DNA from: Myxococcales bacterium
GTDB taxonomy: Bacteria > Myxococcota_A > Bradymonadia > Bradymonadales > Bradymonadaceae
Length of the DNA stretch: 64,000 bases
Assembly: GCA_007120035.1 (NCBI GenBank)
Contig: SKON01000115.1
Span: forward strand, 1-64,000
Direction of reading: 5' to 3'
Shown here: positions 36,043 to 51,347 of the stretch, piece after piece
Layout of the letters: the number at the start of each line of letters is the position of its first letter
How positions within the stretch are numbered: the first letter of the stretch is position 1
Made by a program: the position numbers and the translations under genes
The notes under the pieces: model-generated
The model's database searches: none
Told to the model about the DNA's origin: nothing
What the model saw: only the letters and a program-made list of their open reading frames with translations

Positions 36043-38607
36043 CTACTTCCGAACCGCCCGGGCGCCCACGGGATCCTCGGGCCAGGGATGTTTGGGGTAC
36101 CGGGCCCGCAGTTCTTTGCGCACCTCCGGATAGGTCCGCTCCCAGAACCCACCGAGGTCGTCGGTGATCTGAGCGGGACGATAGTTCGGCGCCAGCAGAT
36201 GCATGAGCACCCCTACCTCGCCCCGCCCCACCCGAGGCGTGTCGGTCCACCCGAAGAGCTCCTGGATCCGCACCGCCAGCACGGGCGGTCCCTCCCACTC
36301 ATACCGAAGCCGAATCGCGCTCCCCGACGGAACGGTGATCCGCTCCGGGGCCTCCTCGGCGAGCAACCGCCGCTGCTCGGCGTTCAGGTAAGCCTTCAGC
36401 GCGCCCACCACTCCCATGCGGCGCAGGTCGCCGAAGCTCCGCTTTCCCCACAAGAGCTGATCCCAGATCGGCTCCTCGTCGTTGCCCACCGCCTCGTCGG
36501 CCAGGAGCTGAGGAAACTCGGCCTCTGGGAACCACCGCCGGCACCACTCCCACCGCAGCAACCACTGCGAATCCTCGTCGCTCAAGCCAAAGGCGGTCGA
36601 CAGATCGGAGAGCGCCGGCCCCTTCAACTCCCGAAGCACCTCCTCGGGCTCGGCCTCGGCCTCCACGGAGAGCACCTCTTCCTCAAAAGCGATCCCCTCG
36701 AAGCTCTTGACCCGACGGGCCATCACCCGCTGTCGAGATCCGTCGAAGCCCACCTGGATCTCCTCCGTGAGCGCCTCGGGGAAGAGCTCCTCCAACCAGG
36801 GCAGCTCCACCTCGCTGGCCAGGCGGATCAGGTTCCTCGACGACACGCTGTCCCCCCGCACCCGGCCGCCGCGGACCTTGCCGCCCACCCTGGGCGCCAC
36901 GATCCACCGGGCGTCGCGGACCACGCTCTCTCGGGCCAGGAGCATCGGCTCTCCGCCGACCATCACGAACCGGTCCTCTCCCAGCGTTCGACGCAGGGCC
37001 ACTCTGTCGGGAAACCCCACCAACACGGCCTTCAACGCCCGGTCCTCACGGGCCTCCCCGTCCCCACCCGACTCGACATCGGCGACCCGCTTCATCAGCT
37101 CCGCTCGGGCCCGCTGCACCCCGCGGGCTCGACCCACATGAACCGAAAGCCCCAGGGCTCGCGCCCCCACTTCCCGCCCCGCCGCCACCTCGTCGAGGAG
37201 CGCCCCTCGCACCAGGAGATCAGACCTCCCCGTCGGCGCGTCGGCCGCCACGGAGGTCACGAAATCCCCCTCGGAGAGCACCGCCGCCGCCGCGGCTACC
37301 TCATCGACCACCCCCAGCTCCCGAGCGGCCAGGAGCATCCTGCCCAACCGGGGGTGAAGCGGCATCCCCAGGAGCTCCCGTCCCACCTCCGTGACCTGAC
37401 CGTCGGCCACGGCACCCAGGCGCTCCAGGAGCTCCACGCCTCGTCGGATCGCCACCGTCGGCGGGGCCTCAAACCATCGAAACTCCTCGGGGTCCATCCC
37501 CGACCAGGCGATCACCTCCAGGAGGGCCCCGGCGATCTCCACCCGCCCGATCTCGGGACGATCGTACTCCTCCATCCGATGCTCCCGGGCCGTCGTCCAC
37601 AGCCGAATCGCCCGCCCTGGCCTCACTCGCCCCGCTCGACCGGCCCGCTGCCTCGCCGACGCCAGGCTGATCTGTCGGAGCTCCAGGTGATTCAGCCTGC
37701 TCTCGGGAGCCATGTGCACCTGCCGGACCTTCCCGCTGTCCACCACCAGGGTCACCCCCTCGATGGTCACCGAGGTCTCGGCGATATTCGTCGAGGCGAT
37801 CACCTTCCGTCTCCCTCCCGACGCGAGCGCCCGATCCTGCTCCTTGCCGCTCAGCGCTGAATAGAGCGGTAGCACCTCGATGTCCTCGCCGCGGGCCCAC
37901 TCCTGAAGCGCGCCGATACACCGGTGGATCTCTCGGCGTCCGGGCAAGAAGACCAGCGCGTCGCCACCATCGTCGTCGGGGCTCCCCACCCACCGACGCA
38001 CCGCCCGGGCGGCCTCCACCTCCAGGGCGTCCTCGGCGGGTCGGTCCAGGTGCTCCACAGTCACCTCGAACTGCCGCCCCTCACTCCGCACCACGGGGAG
38101 CCCCAAAAACTCCGCCATCGGCGAGGCGTCCAACGTGGCCGACATCACCACCACCTTCAGGTCCTCTCGGACCTCCCGGACCTCCCGCAAGAACGCCAAC
38201 GCCAGATCCGTGTGGATCCCTCGCTCGTGGACCTCGTCGAGGATCACCACCTCGACCCCGTCCAGGAGGGGATCTCCCTGGAGCTTCCGGGTCAGGATCG
38301 CCTCGGTCATCACCACAAGACGGGTCTGAGGCCCGACCCGCCGATCATGTCGGACCTGGTATCCCACCTCCCCGCCCAGCTTGCCTCCTCGCTCCGCCGC
38401 GATGCGGCGGGCCGTCGCTCGCGCCGCCACCCGTCGCGGCTCGAGCATCACGATCTGCCCCTCTTCTGCCAACCCGGCGTCAAGCAACGCCGGGGGGACC
38501 CGAGTACTCTTCCCGGCCCCCGGCGGCGCCTCCAACACCACCCCTCCGTGCTCCCTGACGGCCTCCACCACCTGAGGAAGCACGGGATCGATGGGCAACG
38601 CCTTCAA
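36043..38607 (-). CDS. hrpB: ATP-dependent DExH helicase HrpB
   Basis: An 854-residue DEAH/RHA-type helicase. Motifs are GGVVLEAPPGAGKST (Walker A), LEPRRVAARATARRIA (Ia), DEVHERGIHTDLALAFL (II), VMSATLD (III), STNIAETSVTIEGVTLVVDSG (V) and QRAGRAGRVRPG (VI). The HA2-like and HrpB C-terminal domains follow with the family end block (PLGPHPRA-type VLMHLLAPNYRPAQITDDLGGFW). HrpB helicases are widespread but poorly characterised, with links to RNA handling in some species. The hflC stop abuts its start, giving an operon hflK-hflC-hrpB. Confidence 0.92.
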   Translation of the reverse strand: MKALPIDPVLPQVVEAVREHGGVVLEAPPGAGKSTRVPPALLDAGLAEEGQIVMLEPRRVAARATARRIAAERGGKLGGEVGYQVRHDRRVGPQTRLVVMTEAILTRKLQGDPLLDGVEVVILDEVHERGIHTDLALAFLREVREVREDLKVVVMSATLDASPMAEFLGLPVVRSEGRQFEVTVEHLDRPAEDALEVEAARAVRRWVGSPDDDGGDALVFLPGRREIHRCIGALQEWARGEDIEVLPLYSALSGKEQDRALASGGRRKVIASTNIAETSVTIEGVTLVVDSGKVRQVHMAPESRLNHLELRQISLASARQRAGRAGRVRPGRAIRLWTTAREHRMEEYDRPEIGRVEIAGALLEVIAWSGMDPEEFRWFEAPPTVAIRRGVELLERLGAVADGQVTEVGRELLGMPLHPRLGRMLLAARELGVVDEVAAAAAVLSEGDFVTSVAADAPTGRSDLLVRGALLDEVAAGREVGARALGLSVHVGRARGVQRARAELMKRVADVESGGDGEAREDRALKAVLVGFPDRVALRRTLGEDRFVMVGGEPMLLARESVVRDARWIVAPRVGGKVRGGRVRGDSVSSRNLIRLASEVELPWLEELFPEALTEEIQVGFDGSRQRVMARRVKSFEGIAFEEEVLSVEAEAEPEEVLRELKGPALSDLSTAFGLSDEDSQWLLRWEWCRRWFPEAEFPQLLADEAVGNDEEPIWDQLLWGKRSFGDLRRMGVVGALKAYLNAEQRRLLAEEAPERITVPSGSAIRLRYEWEGPPVLAVRIQELFGWTDTPRVGRGEVGVLMHLLAPNYRPAQITDDLGGFWERTYPEVRKELRARYPKHPWPEDPVGARAVRK

Positions 38608-39585
38608 TCAGTCCCCGGCGCTCTTCAAGAACTCGAAGAAGTCGCTCTCCGTGGTCAAGATCAGGGTCGTATTGGCGTCGAGCACCTCCCCGTAGGTCTC
38701 CATGGTCCGCAAGAACCGATAGAACTCGGGGTCCACGTCGAAGGCCTCGGCGTACACCCCGGCGGCCTGGGCGTCGGCCCGCCCCCGGATCTCCTCGGCT
38801 CGACGGTAGGCGTCGGACTCCAATCGCTGGAGCTCTCGCTCCATCTCACCGCGAATCTTGGCGGCCTCTCCTTCCCCTTCCGATCGATACTGCTGAGCAA
38901 TCCGCTGCCGCTCGGCGATCATCCGGGCGAAGACCTCCTGCTGCACGTCCTGATTGTAGTGGATATGCTTGAACCGCACGTCCAAGATCTCGATGCCCAG
39001 GTCTTCGGCCCGGGCAGCCGCCTGCACCAAGATCGCCTCCATAATGTCTCCCCGCCCCCGAGAGATATCCGCCAGTCCCGATTGAACCTGCTGATCCACG
39101 AGCTCCGAGTCCAGTTCGATCTCCTCAGCGATATCGTAAAGCTCGGGATCCTCGGCCGGGACCCGATTGGTGGACCGCACCACCTCGATCAGATCGTGGT
39201 TCGCCACCACGTCTCGGGTCGCCCCGTCGATGATATCGTCCAGCCGGGACTGGGCTCCCTGCTCATCGATGACCCGCTGGTAGAACCGCAGGGGGTCAAC
39301 GATCCGCCACCGGGCGAAGGTGTCGACCCAGATGAATCGCTTATCCCTGGTGGGGATCTGATTTCGAGCTCCGCTCCACTCCAGATACCGATTATCAAAT
39401 CGGTGAATTCGCTGAATAAAGGGGACCTTGAAGTACAGGCCCGGCTCGGTGACGGCATCCCCGACGGGCGCCCCGAACTGAGTGATCACAACCTGCTCGT
39501 TCTCGCTCACCACCATGGTCGACGCCAATCCGACGACGGCGACGATGGCGGCGACGATGACTAACAAACATCCCATCTTATCCAT
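38608..39585 (-). CDS. hflC: HflC, SPFH/prohibitin membrane protein
   Basis: A 325-residue band-7 protein with an N-terminal membrane anchor (CLLVIVAAIVAVVGLASTMVV), then the SPFH core (ENEQVVITQFGAPVGDAVTEPGLYFKVPFIQRIHRFDNRYLEW). A coiled-coil-forming segment (EGEGEAAKIRGEMERELQRLESDAYRRAEEIRGRADAQA) and the C-terminal block RTMETYGEVL are typical of HflC. With HflK it cages and tunes the FtsH protease. Of GTG-ATG in tandem, the ATG at 39585 is favoured because AGGAGG lies six bases ahead. It overlaps the hflK stop by one base (TGATG). ftsH is not in the window. Confidence 0.93.
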   Translation of the reverse strand: MDKMGCLLVIVAAIVAVVGLASTMVVSENEQVVITQFGAPVGDAVTEPGLYFKVPFIQRIHRFDNRYLEWSGARNQIPTRDKRFIWVDTFARWRIVDPLRFYQRVIDEQGAQSRLDDIIDGATRDVVANHDLIEVVRSTNRVPAEDPELYDIAEEIELDSELVDQQVQSGLADISRGRGDIMEAILVQAAARAEDLGIEILDVRFKHIHYNQDVQQEVFARMIAERQRIAQQYRSEGEGEAAKIRGEMERELQRLESDAYRRAEEIRGRADAQAAGVYAEAFDVDPEFYRFLRTMETYGEVLDANTTLILTTESDFFEFLKSAGD

Positions 39586-40616
39586 CACTGACCTCCTGCT
39601 GCGCCGGATAGAGTCATCGGCACCGCCGCGCCCGAGGGCATCATGGGGATCACGTTCTCAGCGTTCTCGTCGATGATCACCTTATTTTCGACCTTCCCGA
39701 GCACGTCGGCCATGGTCTCTAAGTAGATCCGCTGCCGCGTGATCTCCGGAGCATCCACGTACTCGGCGTAGAGGTTTCGGAACCTCGCCACCTGGCCCTC
39801 GGCCCGGTTCACTCGGTTGATCTCGTACCCTTCGGCCTGCTGCACCAACTGCTCCGCCTCCCCTCGGGCCCGAGGAACCGCCGCGTTGTAGGCTCGCCGC
39901 GCCTCGTTGATCTTCCGTTCCATCTCTTGCTGAGCCTGGTTCACCTCGTTGAACGATGGCTTTACCGGATCGGGAGGGTTCACGTCCTGAAGGATCACGT
40001 CGTTGATGCTGATCCCCATCTCGTATCGGTCCGACAGGAGTTGCAGTCGCTCCTGCACGGTCGTCGCAAGCTCCACACGACCCACGGTGAGCACTTCATT
40101 CACCGTTCGGTCCCCCACGATCTCCCTCATCACGGCCTGGCTCAAAAACCGGAGGGTATCCTCCACGTTCCGCACCCGGAAGAGATAGTCGTAGGCGTCC
40201 TCCACTCGATACTGAATCGTCCACTGCACCTGCACCACGTTGAGGTCTCCCGTGAGCATCAGGGACTCCTCCTCGTAGCCATCAGAGCTGTAGACCGTCC
40301 GCTCATCGGCATAGACCGTCCGGAACCCGAACTCCTGCTTGAGCTGCCTTCGGGTGGGCACCACGTGGACCCGCTCCACGCCGAGGGGCATCTTCATGTG
40401 CAGCCCGGGCTCCACTGTTCGAGTGACCTCCCCAAACCGCAGCACCACGCCCACGCTGTCTGCGTTGACCTGGAAGAGGCTGGAGAACAATAAGATCACC
40501 CCCACCACCAACAGGGCGATCACCACCGCCACGGGCTTGGGAACCTTCCCGGCCACCCGGGTCACGTTCCGGGCGTGGCTGAGGTCGATCACCTCGACTT
40601 TTCCTTTCTCACTCAT
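39585..40616 (-). CDS. hflK: HflK, SPFH/prohibitin membrane protein
   Basis: A 343-residue partner of HflC. A short cytoplasmic N-terminus precedes a membrane span (PVAVVIALLVVGVILLFSSLFQV), then the band-7 domain (SVGVVLRFGEVTRTVEPGLHMKMPLGVERVHVVPT). The conserved INDVILQDVNPPDPVKPSFNEVNQAQQEMERKINEA segment identifies HflK over other SPFH members. The usual long Gly/Gln-rich N-terminal part of enterobacterial HflK is missing. It is the first of hflK-hflC-hrpB, and its TGA overlaps the hflC ATG. Confidence 0.93.
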   Translation of the reverse strand: MSEKGKVEVIDLSHARNVTRVAGKVPKPVAVVIALLVVGVILLFSSLFQVNADSVGVVLRFGEVTRTVEPGLHMKMPLGVERVHVVPTRRQLKQEFGFRTVYADERTVYSSDGYEEESLMLTGDLNVVQVQWTIQYRVEDAYDYLFRVRNVEDTLRFLSQAVMREIVGDRTVNEVLTVGRVELATTVQERLQLLSDRYEMGISINDVILQDVNPPDPVKPSFNEVNQAQQEMERKINEARRAYNAAVPRARGEAEQLVQQAEGYEINRVNRAEGQVARFRNLYAEYVDAPEITRQRIYLETMADVLGKVENKVIIDENAENVIPMMPSGAAVPMTLSGAAGGQ

Positions 40617-41914: not shown

Positions 41915-42952
41915 TCACTCCCCGCCGTCGGCGGGAGGCCGAATCTCACGCCCGTCAGGGAGGACCGCGAATCGCCCCACCTCTCGGGGGTGAACCGGCG
42001 TCGGACTCTCCCAGGGCCACCCACCAAACTGGGTCTGATGATAGTCCAGCATCGCCTGGCGAATCTCACCCTGGGTGTTCATCACGAAGGGGCCGTGCTG
42101 CACCACGGGCTCGTCGATAGGCCGCCCCTGCAGAAGCAGGAACTCCGACTCCTGGTCCCCGTTCTTCAACACTACCTCAGCGTCGGGGACCAACCGCAGC
42201 CGAACCCCCTTCTCGATCCCCTCACCGGCCACGGACACACCGCCTCCCTCAAAGTAATACAACGATCGCCGCGACTTCTCCCCGACCGCCGCCGGCAGGG
42301 TCCACGTCGCCCCCGGCTCCATCCGGATCGCCCAGATCGCCACGTCGTTGTCCGGGTTCGCCGCCCAGGAGTTCTCCGGCGGCTGCGGCGGCGCCTCCTC
42401 GCCATAGCTCCCGGCCACCACGGTCACCTCCACGGACCGACCCTCTCCGTCGGCCTGCCTCACGATCGGGATCTCCTCTCCCCAGAACATCGCGAAGAAG
42501 GGCTCCACCAGCTTCTTCTCCCGGGGCAGGTTCAGCCAGATCTGGAAGAGCTCCGTGGTGTTCTCCCGGTCTCGATGAACCAGGGGGAACATCTCGGAGT
42601 GGACCACCCCCTTACCCGCCGTCATCCACTGGACGTCCCCCTTGCCGAATCGGGCCTTCGCACCCAACGAGTCGGAGTGATCGATGAACCCCTGTCGGGC
42701 CAGGGTCACGGTCTCAAAACCACGGTGGGGATGGGTCGGAAACCCGGGCACCACCTCTCCGTGATACATCCGAAACCCATCGCGGGTCACGAAGTCGTTC
42801 CCCAGCGGCCGCCCCTGCAACCACTTCGGGTCCACCCCCATCTCGTCGTTGCCCTCGGGGTACTCGTCGAGGTGATACACGCAGAAGAGGAAGGGGTCAT
42901 CGGTCTGCCACGGAAACGACAGGGGGGTCTGATCGATGATTGGACTGGTCAC
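41915..42952 (-). CDS. Pirin-family cupin protein
   Basis: A 345-residue two-cupin protein. The N-terminal cupin holds the metal ligands of pirins: FPTHPHRGFETVTLARQG (two His), then HSDS and the Glu in VVHSEMFP. LFQIWLNLP and the second cupin (TWTLPAAVGEKSRRSLYYFEGG) follow. Pirins bind iron and include quercetinase-like enzymes and redox-sensing cofactors. The GTG at 42952 is favoured by GGAGGAG seven bases upstream. It lies 26 bases after the Crp/Fnr-like gene and may share its transcript. Confidence 0.9.
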   Translation of the reverse strand: MTSPIIDQTPLSFPWQTDDPFLFCVYHLDEYPEGNDEMGVDPKWLQGRPLGNDFVTRDGFRMYHGEVVPGFPTHPHRGFETVTLARQGFIDHSDSLGAKARFGKGDVQWMTAGKGVVHSEMFPLVHRDRENTTELFQIWLNLPREKKLVEPFFAMFWGEEIPIVRQADGEGRSVEVTVVAGSYGEEAPPQPPENSWAANPDNDVAIWAIRMEPGATWTLPAAVGEKSRRSLYYFEGGGVSVAGEGIEKGVRLRLVPDAEVVLKNGDQESEFLLLQGRPIDEPVVQHGPFVMNTQGEIRQAMLDYHQTQFGGWPWESPTPVHPREVGRFAVLPDGREIRPPADGGE

Positions 42953-42978
42953 GGCGTATCTCCTCCACAATCTCCACA

Positions 42979-43686
42979 TTACCCCGCGGCGAGCTGTCGC
43001 AGGCGCCTCAAGTCGGTCAACATTAACCCCTGACGGGTCCTGTCAACCAAACCGGAGGACGCAAAGAGCCGCCACACCCGGTTCAGTCTCTTTTTTCGGA
43101 TCCCTGCCAACTCCGCGAGCTGCGACGGACTCGGGCTCACCGGTAAGAGCCCCTTATCTGCCTCGATCTCTCCGTAGGACTCCACCAGATAGAGCAAGAG
43201 CCGGGCCAGGCGCACCGGCGGGGAGGTGCCCAGGAGGGGCCACGGGGTCACCTCCAAGGGCGTCTTACTGCGCCACCGCCCCACCTCCACCTGCCGACGG
43301 ACGCCGTGGGGACTCAGGGCCTCCCGCAGCTCCTCCTGAGGAATCACACAGATCGTGGTCTCTCGATCGGTGAGCACTTTAGCCACCTCGACATCGGTGG
43401 CCTTTCCGAATACGTCTCCCCGGCTCAACCGCGCCACCCCATCCTGCTGGGGCAACGAGGCCATCACCGTGCCCTCGACCACCAGCGCCACCTCTACGGG
43501 ATCCATCCATAACGGCACCTCCGCGGCGTGTCCCCATCGCTCCATTCGGCCGCGACGACACACCTCACTGAGGACCGCCTCCGCCTCGGCGCCTCGCAGG
43601 AGGTCTCGAAACGCCCACAGGGCCTGACGACCCTCCCCGGATCCATCCCGGCTTTCCGGTCGTAGGACCAACTCCTCTTTTCCCAT
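42979..43686 (-). CDS. Crp/Fnr-like transcription regulator
   Basis: A 235-residue protein. A cyclic-nucleotide-binding-like beta roll (VPLWMDPVEVALVVEGTVMASLPQQDGVARLSRGDVFGKATDVEV) is followed by a dimer helix region and a winged-helix end (PSPSQLAELAGIRKKRLNRVWRLFASSGLVDRTRQGLMLTDLRRLRQ). The consensus cAMP-contact residues and Fnr cysteines are not seen, so the signal is unknown. The ATG has GAGGAAG six bases ahead. It begins ten bases after the last type III secretion gene, so it is probably in that operon and may control it (inference). Confidence 0.75.
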   Translation of the reverse strand: MGKEELVLRPESRDGSGEGRQALWAFRDLLRGAEAEAVLSEVCRRGRMERWGHAAEVPLWMDPVEVALVVEGTVMASLPQQDGVARLSRGDVFGKATDVEVAKVLTDRETTICVIPQEELREALSPHGVRRQVEVGRWRSKTPLEVTPWPLLGTSPPVRLARLLLYLVESYGEIEADKGLLPVSPSPSQLAELAGIRKKRLNRVWRLFASSGLVDRTRQGLMLTDLRRLRQLAAG

Positions 43687-43696
43687 GTACTTCCTC

Positions 43697-44095
43697 TCAG
43701 GCCGGCTCGGACTCGCTCGCGCAACGGGCCATCACCTCGGCTCTCATCGCCAGGTAATTGTCGATCACCGAGGCCATCGCCTGCAAGGCACCCTTTCCAG
43801 ACTCACCACCGGTCAAGAACTGCTCCGAGAGCTTCGCTCGAAGCCCGTGCAGGCTCCTGGCCGACTCCGAGAGCGACGGCTCCCTCCCCGACGGAGGATC
43901 AGGCATCCGCAGCGCGTCCGGTCGAGGCGGCCCCTCAAAGCTCTCCAGCCGCTGCAGGAGCTCTCCCATCATCGCCAGCGCCGCCGGATGTACCGCCGGT
44001 TCCTGCCACTGAGCGGTAATCGCCTTGCGCAGCTCGGAGAGCTCCCCCACCGCCGGGCCGCCTCCCCCCGGTGCCGCCGTCCCCGTCGTCTTCAT
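43697..44095 (-). CDS. Unknown protein of the type III secretion operon (SctP position)
   Basis: A 132-residue protein with a Gly/Pro-rich N-terminus and helical middle and end (SELRKAITAQWQEPAVHPAALAMMGELLQRLESF, ASVIDNYLAMRAEVMARCASE). No family is recognised. It stands where the needle-length regulator SctP often lies, directly after the SctO-like gene, but it is too short and lacks the typical T3S4 C-terminal domain. The ATG at 44095 overlaps the sctO stop (ATGA) and has GGAGG four bases ahead, and the ATG at 44110 is less likely. Confidence 0.6.
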   Translation of the reverse strand: MKTTGTAAPGGGGPAVGELSELRKAITAQWQEPAVHPAALAMMGELLQRLESFEGPPRPDALRMPDPPSGREPSLSESARSLHGLRAKLSEQFLTGGESGKGALQAMASVIDNYLAMRAEVMARCASESEPA

Positions 44096-44571
44096 CGCCC
44101 CTCCCGCCATTGTCGAGCCGCCACCTCATCCATTTGGTCCGTGGCCTTGCGCTGCTCCTTTCGGGCCTCCTCGGCGGCCCACTTCTCTCGATGCTTCTCC
44201 ACGGCCTTCAGCTCCCGCACCGCCGCGAGCATCGCCTCATGGGCCCGACGCATGGTCCTCCGGGCCTCGGACTCCGCCTCCTCCGCCCGGCGAACCCTCT
44301 CCCGGGCCTCCTCGAGGTCCATCTTCACTCCCTCAAGGTGCCGCTTCATCGACTGCAGCGCCCCTCCGTAGGTGCCTTTCTGCAGCGCTTCGTTGAAACG
44401 AGCCCGCCAACGGCGCAGCTCTTCGATCCCCCCCTCTTCGTCGCTCCGGGCGAACTCCACCTCCCGGCTCGCGAGGTGATAGGCCGACAGGGCCGCTGCA
44501 TATGCCCCCTCCGTCTCAGACCTTGCCTCTCGCCGAAGCTCCCACAACGTCTCCAACTCATAGTTTGCCAT
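44092..44571 (-). CDS. sctO: SctO/FliJ-like stalk protein of type III secretion
   Basis: A 159-residue protein predicted to be almost one long coiled-coil hairpin, rich in Ala, Arg and Glu (MKRHLEGVKMDLEEARERVRRAEEAESEARRTMRRAHEAM). SctO/FliJ proteins are stalks inserted in the central hole of the SctN ATPase ring, linking it to the export gate, and are very poorly conserved in sequence. The assignment rests on length, coiled coil and position right after sctN. The second of two start codons (44571) is chosen for its GAGAG site. Confidence 0.72.
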   Translation of the reverse strand: MANYELETLWELRREARSETEGAYAAALSAYHLASREVEFARSDEEGGIEELRRWRARFNEALQKGTYGGALQSMKRHLEGVKMDLEEARERVRRAEEAESEARRTMRRAHEAMLAAVRELKAVEKHREKWAAEEARKEQRKATDQMDEVAARQWREGR

Positions 44572-44609
44572 CACGCTCTCTCTATGGTCTTCCGATCCTG
44601 GTCTTCCGT

Positions 44610-45935
44610 TTATCCAAAGAGATCCCGCAGCCCTTCCAGGGCCTCCTCAAAGCTGGACCGCTCTTCCTGGCCCTGGCGCAGGTACCCCTCGAGCTCCTCG
44701 ATGTAGTCGATGGCCAGATCGACCTTCTCGTCGCTGCCGTACTCGTAGGCCCCCAGGCTGATCAGGTCCCGACGGGACTCGTAGGTCGCCAGTACTTCCC
44801 GAAACTTCCCGGCGCTCTCCCGATGCTCCTTCTCCGTCACGGCTCCCATCACCCGCGACAGAGATGGCAACACGTCGATGGCCGGCCAATGATTCCGAGA
44901 GGCCAGCTCTCGGCTCAACAGAATATGGCCGTCCAGGATCCCCCGCACCTCGTCGGCGATGGGCTCCTCCATATCGCTGCCGGCCACCAGCACCGTGTAG
45001 AGCGCCGTGATCGAGCCCCGGTCGTTGTTCCCGGTCCGCTCTAAAAGCCGAGGGAGCATGCTGAACACGCTCGGTGGATACCCCTGACGGGCCGGCGGCT
45101 CCCCCGCCGCCAGCCCAACTTCTCGTTGAGCGCGAGCGAACCGGGTCACGGAGTCCATCATCAGCAACACGTCGCACCCCTGGTCGCGGAAATACTCCGC
45201 CACCGCCGTGGCCACATAGGCGGACTTCAACCGCACCAGGCTCGGGGCATCGCTGGTCGCCACCACCACCACCGCTCGTTTTCGCCCCTCCTCCCCGAGG
45301 ACCTCTTCCAGGAAGTCCGCCACTTCTCGCCCCCGCTCCCCGATCAGGGCGATCACGATCACCTCGGCCTCAGTGCCCCGAGCGATCTGCCCCATCAAGG
45401 TCGACTTCCCCACTCCGGACCCGGCGAAGAGCCCCACCCGCTGCCCCCGCCCCACGGTCAACAGCCCGTCGATGGCCCGCAGCCCCATGGGCAGCGGTTC
45501 GGTCACCCGCTTCCTGGTCAGCGGATCGGGAGCGGGTCGCATCAAGGGCCATCGACAATACTCGCCGCCCACCAACGGCGGCCCTGCATCCATGGGCCTG
45601 CCCAACCCATCGAGGACTCGCCCCAACAACCCCGGGCCACACCGGATCGACAGGGGCTCTCCGGTGCTCTCCACCTCAGCGGTAGGCCCCACCCCGGCCA
45701 CCTCTCCCAGAGGCATCAAGACCACGTCCTCCCCGGAGAACCCGACGACCTCAGCCATCAAATCCTCCCCGCCCCGGCGGGCGATGATCACAAGATCTCC
45801 CACCACGGCGTCGGGAGCCGTCGCGTGCACCACGAGGCCTTGCACCCGAGAAACCCTTCCCCGAACCCTCAGGGTGTTCACCTCATCGAGGCCACGTAGA
45901 TACCGGGACAGGATGGATCCTTGTTCTTCCGTCAT
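44610..45935 (-). CDS. sctN: Type III secretion ATPase SctN
   Basis: A 441-residue ATPase of the SctN/FliI group, homologous to F1 beta subunits. Walker A is AGSGVGKSTL in FAGSGVGKSTLMGQIARG, the GERGREV block follows, Walker B is DVLLMMDSVTRFA, and the family segment AGEPPARQGYPPSVFSMLPRLLERTG identifies export ATPases. It uncouples chaperones from substrates and unfolds them at the base of the injectisome. It could in principle be flagellar FliI, but its neighbours (SctI, lipoprotein SctJ) are injectisome-type. AGGAGGAG precedes the ATG, and the end of sctL lies immediately upstream. Confidence 0.93.
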   Translation of the reverse strand: MTEEQGSILSRYLRGLDEVNTLRVRGRVSRVQGLVVHATAPDAVVGDLVIIARRGGEDLMAEVVGFSGEDVVLMPLGEVAGVGPTAEVESTGEPLSIRCGPGLLGRVLDGLGRPMDAGPPLVGGEYCRWPLMRPAPDPLTRKRVTEPLPMGLRAIDGLLTVGRGQRVGLFAGSGVGKSTLMGQIARGTEAEVIVIALIGERGREVADFLEEVLGEEGRKRAVVVVATSDAPSLVRLKSAYVATAVAEYFRDQGCDVLLMMDSVTRFARAQREVGLAAGEPPARQGYPPSVFSMLPRLLERTGNNDRGSITALYTVLVAGSDMEEPIADEVRGILDGHILLSRELASRNHWPAIDVLPSLSRVMGAVTEKEHRESAGKFREVLATYESRRDLISLGAYEYGSDEKVDLAIDYIEELEGYLRQGQEERSSFEEALEGLRDLFG

Positions 45936-45936
45936 C

Positions 45937-46578
45937 TCATCTCCTCCTCTCCCGCAAGCCCTCGCGGAGCACCGCGATCTGAGTGTTCAACCGTGCGTCG
46001 ATTCGACCGCTCTCGGTCTCGATCACGCAATCCCCCCGCTCCAGATCCGGGGCCGCCTCAAAGTGAACGGGCACACCTTCCACGGACTCCACCAGCTCCC
46101 GTCGAGCCCCCAGGAGCGCATCCAGATCCTCGGGATGTACGGAGACCACCAGGGTCCGCCGACCCCGGGCGCTCTTCATCGCCTCCTTCACCATGCTCAC
46201 CACCACCTCGGGCCGGGTCTCCAGGGTGTGGTGCACCAGCCGGCGGGCCACCTCGAAGGCGAGCCGGACCAGATCTTCCTCGGCTCGAGCCTGCAGCCGC
46301 CCGTACTCCGCCCGAGCTCGCGCGATCTGGGTCACACACTCCGTCAGTCCCAGCTCCACCCCCTCGTCCCGGGCCCTGGCCCGGATCTGGTCGGCCTCCA
46401 CACGGGCCCGCTCCAGCTCCTCCTGAGCCGCCCGCTGGAGACCGAGGAGCTCCTCGTCGAGGGACTTCAGATCCTCGACGACCCGTGCCCGCCACAGAGG
46501 CCCGATCGTCGCCAGGGGACGAACTGTCCGAGACAGCTCCGTCCCGGCGCGCAACACTGTGGCCACGGTCTCCTCCAT
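45937..46578 (-). CDS. sctL: SctL/FliH-like stator of the export ATPase
   Basis: A 213-residue protein. An N-terminal part of unclear fold is followed by a long helical region (SLDEELLGLQRAAQEELERARVEADQIRARARDEGVELG) like the b-subunit-like rod of SctL/FliH. The C-terminal domain (VRLAFEVARRLVHHTLETRPEVVVSMVKEAM, TLVVSVHPEDLDALLGAR, GDCVIETESGRIDARLNTQIAVLREGL) matches the delta-subunit-like end that grips SctN. The ATG at 46578 shares one base with the sctK stop (TGATG) and has GGAGG five bases ahead. The frame extension to 46737 is rejected. Confidence 0.88.
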   Translation of the reverse strand: MEETVATVLRAGTELSRTVRPLATIGPLWRARVVEDLKSLDEELLGLQRAAQEELERARVEADQIRARARDEGVELGLTECVTQIARARAEYGRLQARAEEDLVRLAFEVARRLVHHTLETRPEVVVSMVKEAMKSARGRRTLVVSVHPEDLDALLGARRELVESVEGVPVHFEAAPDLERGDCVIETESGRIDARLNTQIAVLREGLRERRR

Positions 46579-47180
46579 CACGACCTCCCGCTCTCTTCCT
46601 GGAACCTCGTCAAGTACTCCACGAGCGCCGCCGTCACCTCCGGTCGACTGCTCCGAATCGCTGCCCGCCGAAACAGGTCGACCCGTCGCCCCAGCGATGG
46701 AGACAGGGCCTGCTTCACAGCGCCCAATCGCTCCCACTCTCGAAACGCCGTGGCCGTGGTGAACGCGTAAAGCCCCACCAGAGAGAGCTCACGTCGAGGA
46801 GGATGTCGCTCCGAACCGACCCGCAAAAACACCTCATAGAGGCGCCGCTCCAATCCTTCATCGGCGGGCATCGACACTGGCGGCGCGGCGATCTTGTCTC
46901 GCTCCAGGGGCGGTAGGTCCGCCAGGGCCGCCGCGACCCGACGTTGAAGCTTCACCCCCTGAAGGCCACCCAGGAGGCAACCGCCCACGATCACCAGCGC
47001 TCCCTCCAGATCCACACCTTGGACCACCTTACCGTCGACCCAACGGGCGAGCTCGATGCCCGGCGCCTCTTGGCCACCTCGCACCGCGCAGGCTCCCGCC
47101 ACGGTCTTCACCATCCCGGCCCGGTCGCCCAGTGCCCTGCCCGCCGCTACAAATCCCTCCTCCCAGATCGTCAGGGTCAT
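46578..47180 (-). CDS. sctK: SctK-like accessory protein of type III secretion
   Basis: A 200-residue soluble protein between sctJ and sctL, the canonical place of sctK. SctK proteins bridge the sorting platform to the basal-body ring and are hardly conserved, so the call rests on gene order and size rather than a motif. Helical segments at the end (REWERLGAVKQALSPSLGRRVDLFRRAAIRSSRPEVTAALVEYL) are visible. The ATG at 47180 overlaps the sctJ stop (ATGA) and the stop overlaps sctL, so it is translationally coupled on both sides. Confidence 0.65.
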   Translation of the reverse strand: MTLTIWEEGFVAAGRALGDRAGMVKTVAGACAVRGGQEAPGIELARWVDGKVVQGVDLEGALVIVGGCLLGGLQGVKLQRRVAAALADLPPLERDKIAAPPVSMPADEGLERRLYEVFLRVGSERHPPRRELSLVGLYAFTTATAFREWERLGAVKQALSPSLGRRVDLFRRAAIRSSRPEVTAALVEYLTRFQEESGRS

Positions 47181-47983
47181 GGGTCCCCCGCCAATCGCCG
47201 CCGGGCCACCACGACGTACACAAGCCCTGCCGACAGGGCGATGATCACCCCTCCCATGCCCAGGATCAGCGCCTTCAACGGTCCCTGGCTGCGGGCCCCC
47301 ACCTCCAGCGGACCGAGGCGGACCACTTCCGCCGCCGTCGCCTCCTCCCCAGGTGGCGGCCGAGCGGCTCCCGTGCTGTACACCACCTCCACGTCCTCTG
47401 CGTGCAGCCCCTCCACTCCCCCGGCGATCAGGCGCTGCACCTCCGCCGGCGTCAGCACGGGCTCCACCCCGTCCATCCACTTCACGAGCACGCTGCCCCG
47501 GGGCCGCTCTCCCTCCTCCTGTCGGAGCCGAACCCGAGGCTTCTCGGGGATCACCAGGTGCACTCGAGCGTCCACCACGCCGGGCACCTGCAAGAGGCTG
47601 GCCTGAAGCTCTCGGGAGGTCGCCACCTGGAGCATCACCCTCTCTTCCTGCGCCGTGGGAATCAGCCCCGACGTGGGATAGAAGTCCTCAAATCCGCCCG
47701 CTCGAGGCCGGGGCAACCCCTCCCGCTCCAGCAGCCCCCAGGCCTCCACCCGCTGATCCTCGGGCACCACCACGGCCCACAGCCCCTCTTGATCGGGATC
47801 CCGAACCTTCCGCGCCCCAAACCCCTCCGCGCTCAGCGCCACCACCATGGCGTTGGCCTCTCCCTCGTCCAACCCGTGATGGAGTGGCTCGGAGCAGCCC
47901 GTCAAAAGCACCATCACCGCTACCATTAACGCCATCAGCGTCCCCAATCCCCAGGCTCTACGTTTCATCCCTCCCCCGTTCAC
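47177..47983 (-). CDS. sctJ: SctJ/YscJ lipoprotein, inner ring of the injectisome
   Basis: A 268-residue lipoprotein of the YscJ/FliF family. The signal ends Leu-Leu-Thr-Gly-Cys. Two ring-building domains follow: GLDEGEANAMVVALSAEGFGARKVRD and EERVMLQVATSRELQASLLQVPGVVDARVHLVIPEKPR, the SctJ signature. A C-terminal membrane span (ALILGMGGVIIALSAGLVYVVV) ends in a basic tail. The lipoprotein signal and short length separate it from flagellar FliF. The GTG at 47983 overlaps the sctI stop (GTGA). An alternative ATG at 47968 gives a cleaner signal peptide. Confidence 0.92.
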   Translation of the reverse strand: MNGGGMKRRAWGLGTLMALMVAVMVLLTGCSEPLHHGLDEGEANAMVVALSAEGFGARKVRDPDQEGLWAVVVPEDQRVEAWGLLEREGLPRPRAGGFEDFYPTSGLIPTAQEERVMLQVATSRELQASLLQVPGVVDARVHLVIPEKPRVRLRQEEGERPRGSVLVKWMDGVEPVLTPAEVQRLIAGGVEGLHAEDVEVVYSTGAARPPPGEEATAAEVVRLGPLEVGARSQGPLKALILGMGGVIIALSAGLVYVVVARRRLAGDP

Positions 47984-48396
47984 ACCTGAGTGTTCATCAT
48001 TTGCTGGACGCCACTGGTCGCCTTCTCCACCACCTTGGTGGTCAACTCCACCCGCTGAGAGTAGCTGTAGATCAGCGCCTGCATCTGGAGCATCTCCTGC
48101 TGCCCCATCTCCCCACCGTTCAAGCAGAGCTCCATCATCCGACGGATCTCCTCTTCATCGCGCATCACCCCCTGCAGAAAGTCCTCCACGGGGATCTCCT
48201 CCGGGGCCTCCACAGCCTCGACAGCCTCTACCTGCTGCCCACCGTCTACCCCGTCCACCCCGTCGATGGCCTCCGGGGACTCCGCCCCCATCAGGTCGGC
48301 AAACTCTCCCCCCGCCTTTCCCCCTTCTTGAGCCTCCGTCGCGGCCGCCACGGCCTCGACCGCCAGGTTTGCCCCTTGCGCGCCTACGGGATCCAT
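47980..48396 (-). CDS. sctI: SctI-like inner rod protein
   Basis: A 138-residue protein. An Ala/Glu/Val-rich variable N-terminus with short Gly-Val-Asp repeats is followed by a conserved-looking end: QQEMLQMQALIYSYSQRVELTTKVVEKATSGVQQMMNTQV. That is the pattern of SctI/YscI inner rod proteins (hydrophobic heptads, then a final Gln-Xn-Thr-Gln). It would join the SctJ ring to the needle or rod. The ATG at 48396 has GGAGG five bases ahead. It is probably the first gene of the sct operon, with a candidate promoter just upstream. Confidence 0.75.
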   Translation of the reverse strand: MDPVGAQGANLAVEAVAAATEAQEGGKAGGEFADLMGAESPEAIDGVDGVDGGQQVEAVEAVEAPEEIPVEDFLQGVMRDEEEIRRMMELCLNGGEMGQQEMLQMQALIYSYSQRVELTTKVVEKATSGVQQMMNTQV

Positions 48397-48440
48397 CCTC
48401 ACCTCCGCCTCAATCACCAATGCGATGCACATCTGGATCT

Positions 48441-48469
48441 ATTATCGACGGCTTCCCCCGATCTGTGCG
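48441..48469 (-). promoter_or_regulatory. Candidate promoter of the sct operon
   Basis: On the minus strand CGCACA (48469-48464), a 17-base spacer and GATAAT (48446-48441) lie between the kinase stop and the sctI start. The -10 is good and the -35 only matches in its last three bases. Confidence 0.35.
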
Positions 48470-48477
48470 CACTTTTT

Positions 48478-51213
48478 CTACAGGGCCTCCAGGGAGACCT
48501 CCCCTCCGTCGATCACCGCCCGATACCGGCTATGGCCGCCCCCCTCCACCGTCAGGGGCACCCGCAGCCGTTGTCCCTCGAGGGTCTCCAGGACCACCGT
48601 GTGTTCTCCCCCGTCGAGCTCGATCTCCGTCAGCGGCCCGGCCCCGTAGGATCGGGCGTCGATATAGATCGCTGCGTTGGGCTCCACCTCCAGACTCAGC
48701 TGACCCGACTCGCCACGCATCGGCGGCAGTTCTATCCCCACGAAGAAGGAGCCGATCTGGTCCAACCTCAACCTCAGCTCCCGAGCCTCCCTCTCGTGGC
48801 CATCGATCTTCAGCTCCAACCACTCCCCGTCGCGGTGCTCGTTCTCGAAAGGTGTCGTGGACAGCTCCTCTCCATGAACGAAGACCCGACTGCCTCGGGG
48901 CTGCACCTCGTAGACCCCGATGACTCGACTGCCCCGGTCTTCGGCCAGCATGCCCCGGATCCGATTGTCCCCCTGGCTGCGGAACTGCACCACCGCCACG
49001 AACGGGCGATACCCCTCCAGCTCGTACTGCACGTGGCTCTCGAAGTCAGCGGGCACGTTCTCCAGCCGCAGGGGCGTCCGGCCGATGGGCTCTCCATCGA
49101 GGAACACCGTCGCCTGATCCGGGGTACTCCGAAACTCCACCCGGGCCGTCTCGGTGGGCATGGCCCGCTCCATCTCCACGGTTCGGCGCTGGCCGGCTTC
49201 GCCATCCACAAAGAGGCGCACCGGCCGATACCGGGGTCGGAGGATCCACACCTCGTTAGACCTCCCCTTCACCAGGGGAACCGCCAGCGGGGTCTTGCCG
49301 TCGAGACGGACCCCATTGACGATCACCCGGGCATCGGCGGGCTCCGTCACCAGGCTCAGCTCCACTTCCTCTTCTCCGACCACCTCGGTGGCCTCCGCCA
49401 GGGGCATCACCTCATCGACGACTCCGTCCTCCTCTCCGCCGGATCTCAGAGTCCCGACCAACACCACGAAGAACACCACCAGGGCAGCCACCCCCGCGAC
49501 CACTCCGATCTGTAACGGCAGGGAGCCCTGAATCAGCACCACCAGAGAGTTTCGCCGAGGCAGGGGCGCGGCCACTTTCTCCATCGGCGCCGTCGCCCAC
49601 GCCCCATCGCTCGGGGGACCCGCGGCGATCTTCACCTCCTCGGCGTCCCCGGACTTCCCCGACGTCCCCGAGTCCCCGGGCTCCTCCTCCACCTCGTTGA
49701 GGCCGGTGAGCGTCCGGCCCCCGGACTTCAGCTCCGGCAGCGAACCCAGGAGCCGATCCATGGTCGACCCCTCAGCCTCCCTATCGGCGACCGGTGACTC
49801 CCCCGGGGCCGGCCCTGGCCCCGCTCCCCGATCTCGCCACTGGTTTGTGATCTGCCGGGACGGCGAGGGATCTACTTCCTTGACACGAGGGATGGTGGTC
49901 CCGTCTGGTGGGCCGTCACCGTCGCCCCCCGTGTCACCCTCCCACTCTTCGGTCAGCTCTACCCCCTGCGCCGCTTTCCCCTCTCGCCGCCGCTGGGCTT
50001 CTTCCGGAGTGATTCGGCGAATCTCCACGGCCTCCGTCGACAGCTCCTCTTCCGGCACGTGGAGGATCTCTGTCTCTTCCTCCTCCAGATCGTCGGGATC
50101 GAGCTCCTCCAGCCCTTCCAACTCGTCAAAGGAGAAGGTCTGATCCTGGACCGTCGTATCACCCTCTCCCTCTTCTTCGAGCTCCACCTCCGCAGAGAAC
50201 TCGACCACCGCGTCGTCGGACACGGAGATCTCCATCGTCGTAGAGTCCTTCGGCGCCTTGGGCTCCGCCAGGGGCAACACCTCCTCGTACTCCGGAGGTT
50301 CGTGGACCTCCTCCATGTACGAGGCCAGCTGCCGAGCCCCCACCCGATGCCGACCCTCGAAGAGCCACTCCTCCAGCGCCTCGTGAAACTCAGCGGTCGT
50401 CTGGTATCGCTCCTCGGGATCCGTCGCCAGGGCCTTCAGGATGATCTCCTCCAGCCGTGGCGAGAAGTCGGGGCGGATCTTCGACGGCGGCGTCACCTCC
50501 CCCTCAGTGATCTTCCGCATCGTCTCGTACTCTGTGCGGGACCGGAACAGCCGGGTCGCAACGGTGATCTCGTAGAGCACGATCCCAAGGGTGAAAATGT
50601 CGCTTCGATGGTCCAGATCGCCTCGCCCGAACTGCTCGGGGCTCATATAGGCGAACTTCCCTTTGAACTCCCCGGCCTGGGTGTGGGTCAGACGGCTCTC
50701 GGCCCGGGCGATCCCGAAGTCGCAGAGCTTCACGGCGCCGTCGACGCTGATCAGGATATTCTGGGGCGACACGTCGCGATGGACGACGTTCATCGGACGG
50801 CCCTGGTCATCGGTCCGGGTGTGGGCGTACTGCAGCCCGGCGGCGACCTCGGCGATGATGTGGACCGCCAGGGGCCGGGACAGGAAATTCTTCTTGTCCA
50901 CCCCCTGCTCACAAAGCCGCCTGAGATCGGTCCCCTCCACATACTCCATGGCGATGAAGAAGCTGTCGTCCACCACCCCCAGATCATAGATCTGCACGAT
51001 GTTCGGATGGCTCAACCGAGCTGCGATCCGAGCCTCGTCGATGAACATATTGATGCTCTCTTCCTGGTCCACGTAGTGGGGGAAGAGACGCTTGATGGCC
51101 ACCTCTCGCTTGAACCCTCCGATCTCACCGGTCCGGGTAGCCAAGAACACCTCGGCCATTCCGCCCTGGGCGATCTTCTTGTGGAGCTCGTACCGTCCGA
51201 AGGTCACCGACAT
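48478..51213 (-). CDS. Ser/Thr protein kinase with PEGA repeats
   Basis: A 911-residue transmembrane kinase. The kinase domain (about 6-275) has the Gly loop, catalytic Lys41 (VAIK), His145-Arg-Asp147 (HRDVSPQN), Asp165-Phe-Gly and SPEQ, all intact. An acidic juxtamembrane linker follows, then one membrane span (LQIGVVAGVAALVVFFVVLVGTL). The extracytoplasmic part holds about four PEGA-type beta repeats (TEPADARVIVNGVRLDGKTPLAVPL, STPDQATVFLDGEPIGRTPLRL, VEPNAAIYIDARSYGAGPL). It likely senses an envelope signal. The start at 51213 begins just before the conserved FGRYEL. It is encoded just ahead of the sct operon and divergent from cinA. Confidence 0.9.
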   Translation of the reverse strand: MSVTFGRYELHKKIAQGGMAEVFLATRTGEIGGFKREVAIKRLFPHYVDQEESINMFIDEARIAARLSHPNIVQIYDLGVVDDSFFIAMEYVEGTDLRRLCEQGVDKKNFLSRPLAVHIIAEVAAGLQYAHTRTDDQGRPMNVVHRDVSPQNILISVDGAVKLCDFGIARAESRLTHTQAGEFKGKFAYMSPEQFGRGDLDHRSDIFTLGIVLYEITVATRLFRSRTEYETMRKITEGEVTPPSKIRPDFSPRLEEIILKALATDPEERYQTTAEFHEALEEWLFEGRHRVGARQLASYMEEVHEPPEYEEVLPLAEPKAPKDSTTMEISVSDDAVVEFSAEVELEEEGEGDTTVQDQTFSFDELEGLEELDPDDLEEEETEILHVPEEELSTEAVEIRRITPEEAQRRREGKAAQGVELTEEWEGDTGGDGDGPPDGTTIPRVKEVDPSPSRQITNQWRDRGAGPGPAPGESPVADREAEGSTMDRLLGSLPELKSGGRTLTGLNEVEEEPGDSGTSGKSGDAEEVKIAAGPPSDGAWATAPMEKVAAPLPRRNSLVVLIQGSLPLQIGVVAGVAALVVFFVVLVGTLRSGGEEDGVVDEVMPLAEATEVVGEEEVELSLVTEPADARVIVNGVRLDGKTPLAVPLVKGRSNEVWILRPRYRPVRLFVDGEAGQRRTVEMERAMPTETARVEFRSTPDQATVFLDGEPIGRTPLRLENVPADFESHVQYELEGYRPFVAVVQFRSQGDNRIRGMLAEDRGSRVIGVYEVQPRGSRVFVHGEELSTTPFENEHRDGEWLELKIDGHEREARELRLRLDQIGSFFVGIELPPMRGESGQLSLEVEPNAAIYIDARSYGAGPLTEIELDGGEHTVVLETLEGQRLRVPLTVEGGGHSRYRAVIDGGEVSLEAL

Positions 51214-51269
51214 GCTGGAGGGTCGCTCAGGGAGGTGGTAGAAAGGGGGGAGCGGCTTTTCAAAGCGGC

Positions 51270-51294
51270 TGCAAAGGTACGTCAAGTCTTTGCA
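51270..51294. promoter_or_regulatory. Inverted repeat between the kinase gene and cinA
   Basis: TGCAAAG (51270-51276) and CTTTGCA (51288-51294) form a perfect 7-bp dyad with an 11-base spacer. A direct repeat CGTCAAG occurs at 51280-51286 and 51298-51304, so on the minus strand CTTGACG appears twice, 18 bases apart, resembling a -35 element. It is a possible operator in the divergent promoter region. Confidence 0.45.
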
Positions 51295-51347
51295 AACCGT
51301 CAAGCTAGCTCCCCCTCACAGGGCATTCCTCGACCCCGGATTCGGTC

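Follow-up and report, generated by a model that had tools for sequence, protein, structure and literature searches.

A dispersed type III secretion system in a Bradymonadales-like genome and two protein families with candidate needle-like C-termini

A window of 64,000 nucleotides from a Bradymonadaceae genome, which is the whole stretch analysed here, carries genes for the inner-membrane ring, rod and ATPase complex of a type III secretion system (T3SS) and none for an export gate. This raises the question of whether these genes belong to a secretion machine whose other parts lie elsewhere, are left over from one, or serve the flagellum, and what such a machine might export. The window is contig 52 of 353 in a 5.5 Mb assembly that is 93% complete (genome G000), and among the genomes of its family are three in a single contig, of 5.0, 5.8 and 8.0 Mb. 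A scan with a related gene found Lujinxingia vulgaris (Bradymonadales) and a MAG of the Lujinxingiaceae, and the host is accordingly taken to be Bradymonadales-like. Absences stated below refer to profile searches of this 93% complete draft genome and of three single-contig relatives.

The operon in the window and its neighbours

As the first-pass annotation had described, sctI-J-K-L-N-O and a further conserved gene, gene X, follow one another in tight leftward packing, all on the minus strand (Table 1). Together with a crp-like gene they form one tightly packed leftward operon, confirmed at 42979-48396: sctI and sctJ are 11 bp apart, sctJ and sctK overlap by 4 nt and sctK and sctL by 1 nt, sctL and sctN are separated by 1 bp and sctN and sctO by 35 bp, sctO and X overlap by 4 nt, X lies 10 bp from the crp-like gene, and the latter overlaps the pirin gene by 1 nt. 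Since all genes from sctI to crp overlap or sit within 35 bp of each other, they are likely to share one transcript. The order sctI-J-L-N-O is found in nine other family genomes and partially in four more, a recurrence far beyond chance.

Table 1. Coordinates of the T3SS operon and adjoining genes in the window
Feature	Position	Strand	Basis of assignment
pirin	41915..42979	-	PF02678, PF05726 over cut-off
Crp/Fnr-like regulator, 235 aa	42979..43686	-	PF13545 HTH_Crp_2, 38.3 bits (cut-off 27)
gene X, conserved helical protein, 132 aa	43697..44095	-	same place in relatives
sctO, ATPase stalk, 160 aa	44092..44574	-	PF16789 YscO-like, 49.1 bits (cut-off 27)
sctN, export ATPase, 441 aa	44610..45935	-	TIGR02546, 620.8 bits (cut-off 604.75), and tree
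sctL, ATPase stator, 213 aa	45937..46578	-	PF06635 45.7 bits, PF02108 73.3 bits, both over cut-off
putative sctK, sorting-platform accessory, 200 aa	46578..47180	-	position between sctJ and sctL only
sctJ, inner-membrane ring lipoprotein, 263 aa	47177..47968	-	PF01514, 72.8 bits, over cut-off
sctI, inner rod subunit, 138 aa	47980..48396	-	PF17001; first operon gene
transmembrane PEGA-repeat Ser/Thr kinase, 911 aa	48478..51213, from internal ATG	-	PF00069, 149.5 bits

The SctI of the window scores 24.1 bits against PF17001, under the cut-off of 32.4, and this model is matched by all ten SctI family members (best E value 5.4e-6); the C-terminus is invariant across the family, and a family profile searched against the PDB returns the Shigella rod protein MxiI as its top match (E 0.37). 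SctJ carries a lipobox and a C-terminal membrane helix and reaches 136 bits with TIGR02544 (cut-off 162). No family in Pfam or NCBIfam was matched by the SctK candidate, and the sctK position in relatives is occupied by poorly conserved ORFs of 186-349 aa. Gene X has orthologs at the same place in eight relatives (G002, G004, G006, G007, G008, G010, G011 and G013). It has no Pfam family and no PDB relative, and its single-sequence AlphaFold model is mostly helical and of low confidence (pLDDT 60). X was rejected as a needle subunit or as SctP, given the lack of any family or PDB relative, the absence of a match with the profile of families A and B described below, and the presence of SctP elsewhere.

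Kinase and transcriptional control of the module had been proposed as well, and the two halves of that claim fared differently. Transcriptional control by the Crp-like protein is plausible: nine relatives have a homolog downstream of the module, five of them directly after X, and the protein, whose cNMP-binding domain match is sub-threshold, would be the likeliest local regulator. The part assigned to the kinase is weak. Its VAIK, HRD and DFG motifs are present, PF08308 PEGA matches in three stretches, and its gene ends 81 bp upstream of sctI; it is adjacent to sctI only in G000, G002 and G013, one gene off in G008 and G011, and was not found in the T3SS locus of five other relatives. The adjacency may be plain synteny, since the neighbour cinA is common to those loci. 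With adjacency in three genomes only, the kinase was largely rejected as a conserved part; pirin was rejected too, no pirin match being found in the relatives' loci, and its place beside the operon is probably incidental. Farther along the window, two overlapping SPFH/HflK-HflC-like genes (38608-40616) adjoin a helicase gene (36043-38607), and a comparable pair with a helicase lies upstream of the T3SS operon in G006 (L048).

The remaining parts of the machine

Other parts of this T3SS lie on at least five further contigs of G000. A lone sctV on contig C123 scores 794.8 bits with the SctV model TIGR01399 (cut-off 692) and 653 with the FlhA model (cut-off 772), sctRSTU and, after them, an LcrH-like TPR gene close contig C249, and C226 carries the pair sctP-sctQ, of which SctP passes the PF02120 cut-off. 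SctR reaches 236 bits with TIGR01102 (cut-off 208.6) as against 203 for FliP (cut-off 217). SctU, in which the NPTH cleavage motif is present, scores 350 bits, just below the cut-off of 358; SctT is under both of its cut-offs, and for SctS and SctT the flagellar models give scores similar to or higher than those of the injectisome models. In NCBIfam, the TPR genes that adjoin sctU and family A match LcrH_SycD best. The SctRSTUV export gate is therefore complete in G000, across C123 and C249: its reported absence holds for the window but not for the genome. The description of the system as split was right, sctV, sctRSTU and sctP-Q being on three other contigs. This scatter is not an assembly artefact, since the sctV, sctRSTU and sctP-Q loci are far apart in the single-contig genomes G005, G008 and G011 too. 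All of the Bradymonadales-like family has this scattered layout, and the parts are kept in the same local gene order across its roughly 13 genera.

In relatives a FliO gene precedes sctR, with TIGR03500 over cut-off in G008, and the G000 contig ends directly past sctR, at the usual place of FliO. A single 393-aa open frame in G005 (L220:4508-5689) comprises FliO and SctR, a possible FliO-SctR fusion. Near the lone sctV of C123 lies a gene for a zinc-ribbon and FHA protein (L005:16622-17587), with a lipoprotein-like gene between; the same pair adjoins sctV in G005, G008 and G011 (L215-L217).

Searches for secretins returned only three types per genome, namely PilQ-like proteins of about 1100 aa, GspD-like proteins of 820-940 aa and Kil-type proteins of 450-500 aa, none of them T3SS-type; as the short type lies inside the Kil/Tad operon, no SctC was seen. 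That operon, on C195 (L210:7114-14648), encodes CpaB, a 454-aa secretin, an FHA-ATPase, two TadB/TadC-like proteins and an FHA protein; behind it comes a short pilin-like ORF. Kil-like systems are present in Bradymonadales (PMC8460266). The search for SctD with TIGR02500 gave sub-threshold FHA matches only. One protein of about 440 aa that it found in eight genomes combines a pair of FHA domains with a membrane helix and TPR, and was rejected as SctD because it is the FHA-TPR partner of an FHA-TadA ATPase. This TadA-like ATPase, the second of its kind, bears an FHA domain at its N-terminus and is invariably accompanied by the two-FHA/TPR protein (C33, L202:6968-10705; L203-L209), and the pair is kept in all eight genomes examined. 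The earlier word "reduced" is thus apt as regards the T3SS-type secretin and a convincing SctD, neither of which was found, but not as regards SctQ, SctP and the candidate needle-domain proteins; with these present, the system is less reduced than "needleless" implies.

Two protein families with a candidate needle-like C-terminus

The needle model PF09392 gave no match over its cut-off. Sub-threshold matches in G003 and G013 lie at orthologous loci beside a divergent helicase gene, and tracing these loci led to two protein families, A and B, which occur in nearly all family genomes. Both are encoded outside the window, and the needle-like C-termini that they appear to carry are new; no report of such proteins for bradymonad or Myxo-type T3SS was found in the open-access literature. 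Family A (160-330 aa; own copy on C14) is followed by a TPR gene in most members, LcrH-like in G000, and family B (own copy on C300) comprises proteins of about 140 aa (range 119-160 aa), so that both exceed the roughly 80 aa of a needle subunit. A and B have in common a C-terminal region that finishes with HDTxKAxIxNxR and are homologous (hhalign 98.7%; shuffled controls <2%).

A profile of the A and B C-termini, searched against 177,635 PDB sequences, places the needle protein PrgI at ranks 1-6 (E 0.014-0.19), aligned C-terminus to C-terminus. Family A alone finds PrgI and MxiH, whereas family B alone, at full length or as C-terminus, finds no needle in the PDB, so that the link of B to needles runs through A. 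PF09392 is the Pfam family that matches most members of A and B (best E 5.8e-5, under cut-off), and the single PDB needle matches, at E 0.014-0.22, are likewise sub-threshold. As a control, the rod profile searched against the PDB found the rod protein MxiI and not the needle. With such modest E values, the argument that A and B are needle-like draws on the rank of PrgI, the register and the genomic context. Family B also has a Gly-rich hydrophobic segment, as in translocators, and in its AlphaFold model (19 sequences, pLDDT 61) only one long C-terminal helix is confident.

The genomic context of family B was followed beyond the bradymonads. In L319, from another Myxococcota family, B, a helical protein and a sigma-like gene precede sctI-J-K-L-N-O-Q; the sigma-factor-like gene (L319:10811-11476) lies within the T3SS operon, between B and sctI. 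In L265, B stands directly before sctI-sctJ, with sctQ and sctR further on, and in two Chloracidobacterium contigs from Acidobacteriota MAGs (L273, L274) B lies upstream of sctU, the two being separated in L274 by a TPR gene and the helical protein; this occurrence may reflect transfer, a wider distribution or misbinning. The helical partner recurs downstream of B, and its profile finds the L319 (8e-7) and L274 (1e-3) proteins among 6,581 ORFs. B-like matches in two Thorarchaeota contigs (L271, L272) were set aside as misbinned and probably bacterial. Of 379 Myxococcota genomes, 40 have SctV over cut-off, and B occurs in 37 of these versus 35 of the 339 others (p about 1e-27); beyond the family the counts are 20 of 22 versus 34 of 337, the fairer figure, and the p-values overstate the association because the genomes are related. 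Bradymonad queries detected no other T3SS gene near 17 of 20 distant B loci, in keeping with scattered genes; sctQ lies 6 kb from B in L311, and L319 holds a full operon.

Competing readings, proposed action and known systems

A first alternative is that these genes are spare or alternative flagellar export parts, for example a second flagellar ATPase complex. The genome is indeed flagellated, SctS and SctT are ambiguous, and FliO precedes sctR in relatives; FliO is, however, already known from non-flagellar Myxococcota systems (PMC12248157), and SctN, SctV and SctR score over the cut-offs of injectisome models and under those of their flagellar counterparts, the FliI models in the case of SctN. 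The SctN tree puts the window gene outside the flagellar clade, a placement inside which the first-pass annotation had named as refuting its reading, and the non-flagellar reading stands: the gene groups with the family and other Myxococcota (f2 genomes), sister to EscN (98/92, 99/93), a second T3SS ATPase also being sister and the FliI of G000 lying apart. SctN thus falls among Myxococcota systems, basal in the non-flagellar T3SS (NF-T3SS), in a tree built without named Myxococcus sequences. The SctV tree, read without the G021 row (a wrongly extracted frame), separates the C123 gene from the FlhA of G000 and places it nearest G002, G014 and G013. Nor is there a flagellar operon lacking exactly these parts, the other refuting condition named: the cluster on C199 has its own FliI, FliF, FlhA, FlhB and FliP, along with FliM/N, MotA/B and flagellin, and the flagellar rod, hook and motor genes are located there and not beside any T3SS locus examined. 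Moreover, 10 of the 14 family relatives listed have SctV as their single FHIPEP protein and hence no flagellar FlhA, and they keep the T3SS. A flagellar role is thus very improbable. We consider it equally far-fetched that the loci are the non-functional remnant of a decaying injectisome, split by rearrangement. Scattered loci, the missing secretin and SctD and the contigs of a draft genome would agree with decay, yet the parts are intact and hold their local order over about 13 genera, the motifs for catalysis and cleavage are preserved, and T3SS transcripts rise during Bradymonas predation (PMC7460792). SctN and SctV, two unlinked parts, also have the same nearest relatives, which fits shared vertical descent. 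Judged by model scores and trees, the module is neither relic nor flagellar, and is a non-flagellar T3SS with SctN, SctV and SctR of injectisome type.

The best explanation, which we regard as probable, is that a secretin-less T3SS directed at prey exports needle-domain subunits. A more specific version, to which we give slightly less than an even chance, is that the predatory T3SS is not needleless: A and B would be enlarged needle-domain subunits that have TPR chaperones, are exported and are assembled without a T3SS secretin, perhaps via the Kil apparatus, across Myxococcota and into Acidobacteriota. It competes with an ordinary needleless Myxo-type T3SS*, in which A and B would be exported effectors or translocators with LcrH chaperones and would resemble needles through a helix for export or docking that both have. 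That reading, which we hold to be possible if somewhat doubtful, follows the needleless model for Myxococcus (PMC12075869, PMC10433427), extended to bradymonads in PMC11509652; the hydrophobic Gly-rich segment of B, the match of the TPR chaperones to the translocator class LcrH/SycD and the sub-threshold needle E values all suit it. Against it stand the strict C-terminal register of A and B with PrgI, the position of B directly before the rod gene in L265, which is that of the needle gene in SPI-1-type operons, its place upstream of sctI-J-K-L-N-O-Q in L319, and the retention of SctP, a length-control and switch protein, beside SctQ. That A and B are exported needle-type subunits is uncertain.

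By analogy with Myxococcus, the T3SS probably acts at predator-prey contact with the Kil/Tad pilus. ATP hydrolysis by SctN, together with the SctRSTUV gate, would export early substrates, the best candidates being SctI, family A (with its LcrH-like chaperone gene) and family B. A and B could then assemble, within the periplasm or at the Kil apparatus, into a short filament or plug in place of a classical needle passing through a secretin, after which SctP and self-cleaving SctU would switch export to putative lytic effectors. In Myxococcus, the T3SS* is recruited where the cell touches its prey, and lysis depends on it (PMC12075869); T3SS inner-membrane genes are upregulated in Bradymonas predation (PMC7460792). 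From the Myxococcus work (PMC12075869, PMC10433427), the Bradymonadales Kil systems (PMC8460266) and this predation induction, we infer that the T3SS acts on prey together with the Kil pilus. The findings bear on how a secretin-less, needleless T3SS acts on prey in predatory bacteria, and the parts list and needle-domain candidates can be tested by single gene deletions in cultured bradymonads. They also bear on how injectisomes are proposed to have arisen from flagella, since these basal systems retain FliO, a FliK-like switch protein, the rod and maybe a needle-like subunit.

A T3SS and a needle-less T3SS* have been published for bradymonads (PMC7460792, PMC11509652), and these describe the same system in a relative. 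The portions of the two papers available to us list export-apparatus genes with far-apart locus tags that are up in predation, infer "needle-less" from the export-gate genes listed, and mention neither an IJKLNO-X-Crp operon nor an SctP-Q pair nor needle-domain proteins. With Salmonella SPI-1 and Yersinia Ysc, the window system shares the I-J-K-L-N order, the SctP switch, a putative needle-like C-terminal helix and TPR chaperones adjoining needle or translocator genes; unlike them, it has no SctC, no SctD that was found, unlinked genes, and no known tip, translocon or eukaryotic host. The T3SS of Chlamydia is also spread over several loci (PMC3459982), but it has a secretin and a needle and belongs to obligate intracellular parasites. 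Compared with the T3SS* of Myxococcus xanthus (MXAN_2434-2464), which occupies one or two clusters, the window system extends over at least six loci, has no SctD found, has the Crp-like gene and X attached, and is accompanied by A and B, candidate needle-domain families for which no T3SS* counterpart has been reported. Like T3SS* and the "Myxo" group (Abby and Rocha 2012), published as a basal secretin-less NF-T3SS (PMC3459982), it is non-flagellar, lacks a secretin and has an SctN outside flagella and beside injectisomes. It further shares with T3SS* the ring and rod of I and J, L, N, Q and RSTUV, the LcrH-like TPR genes, a companion Kil/Tad pilus, and a predatory lineage within the same phylum.
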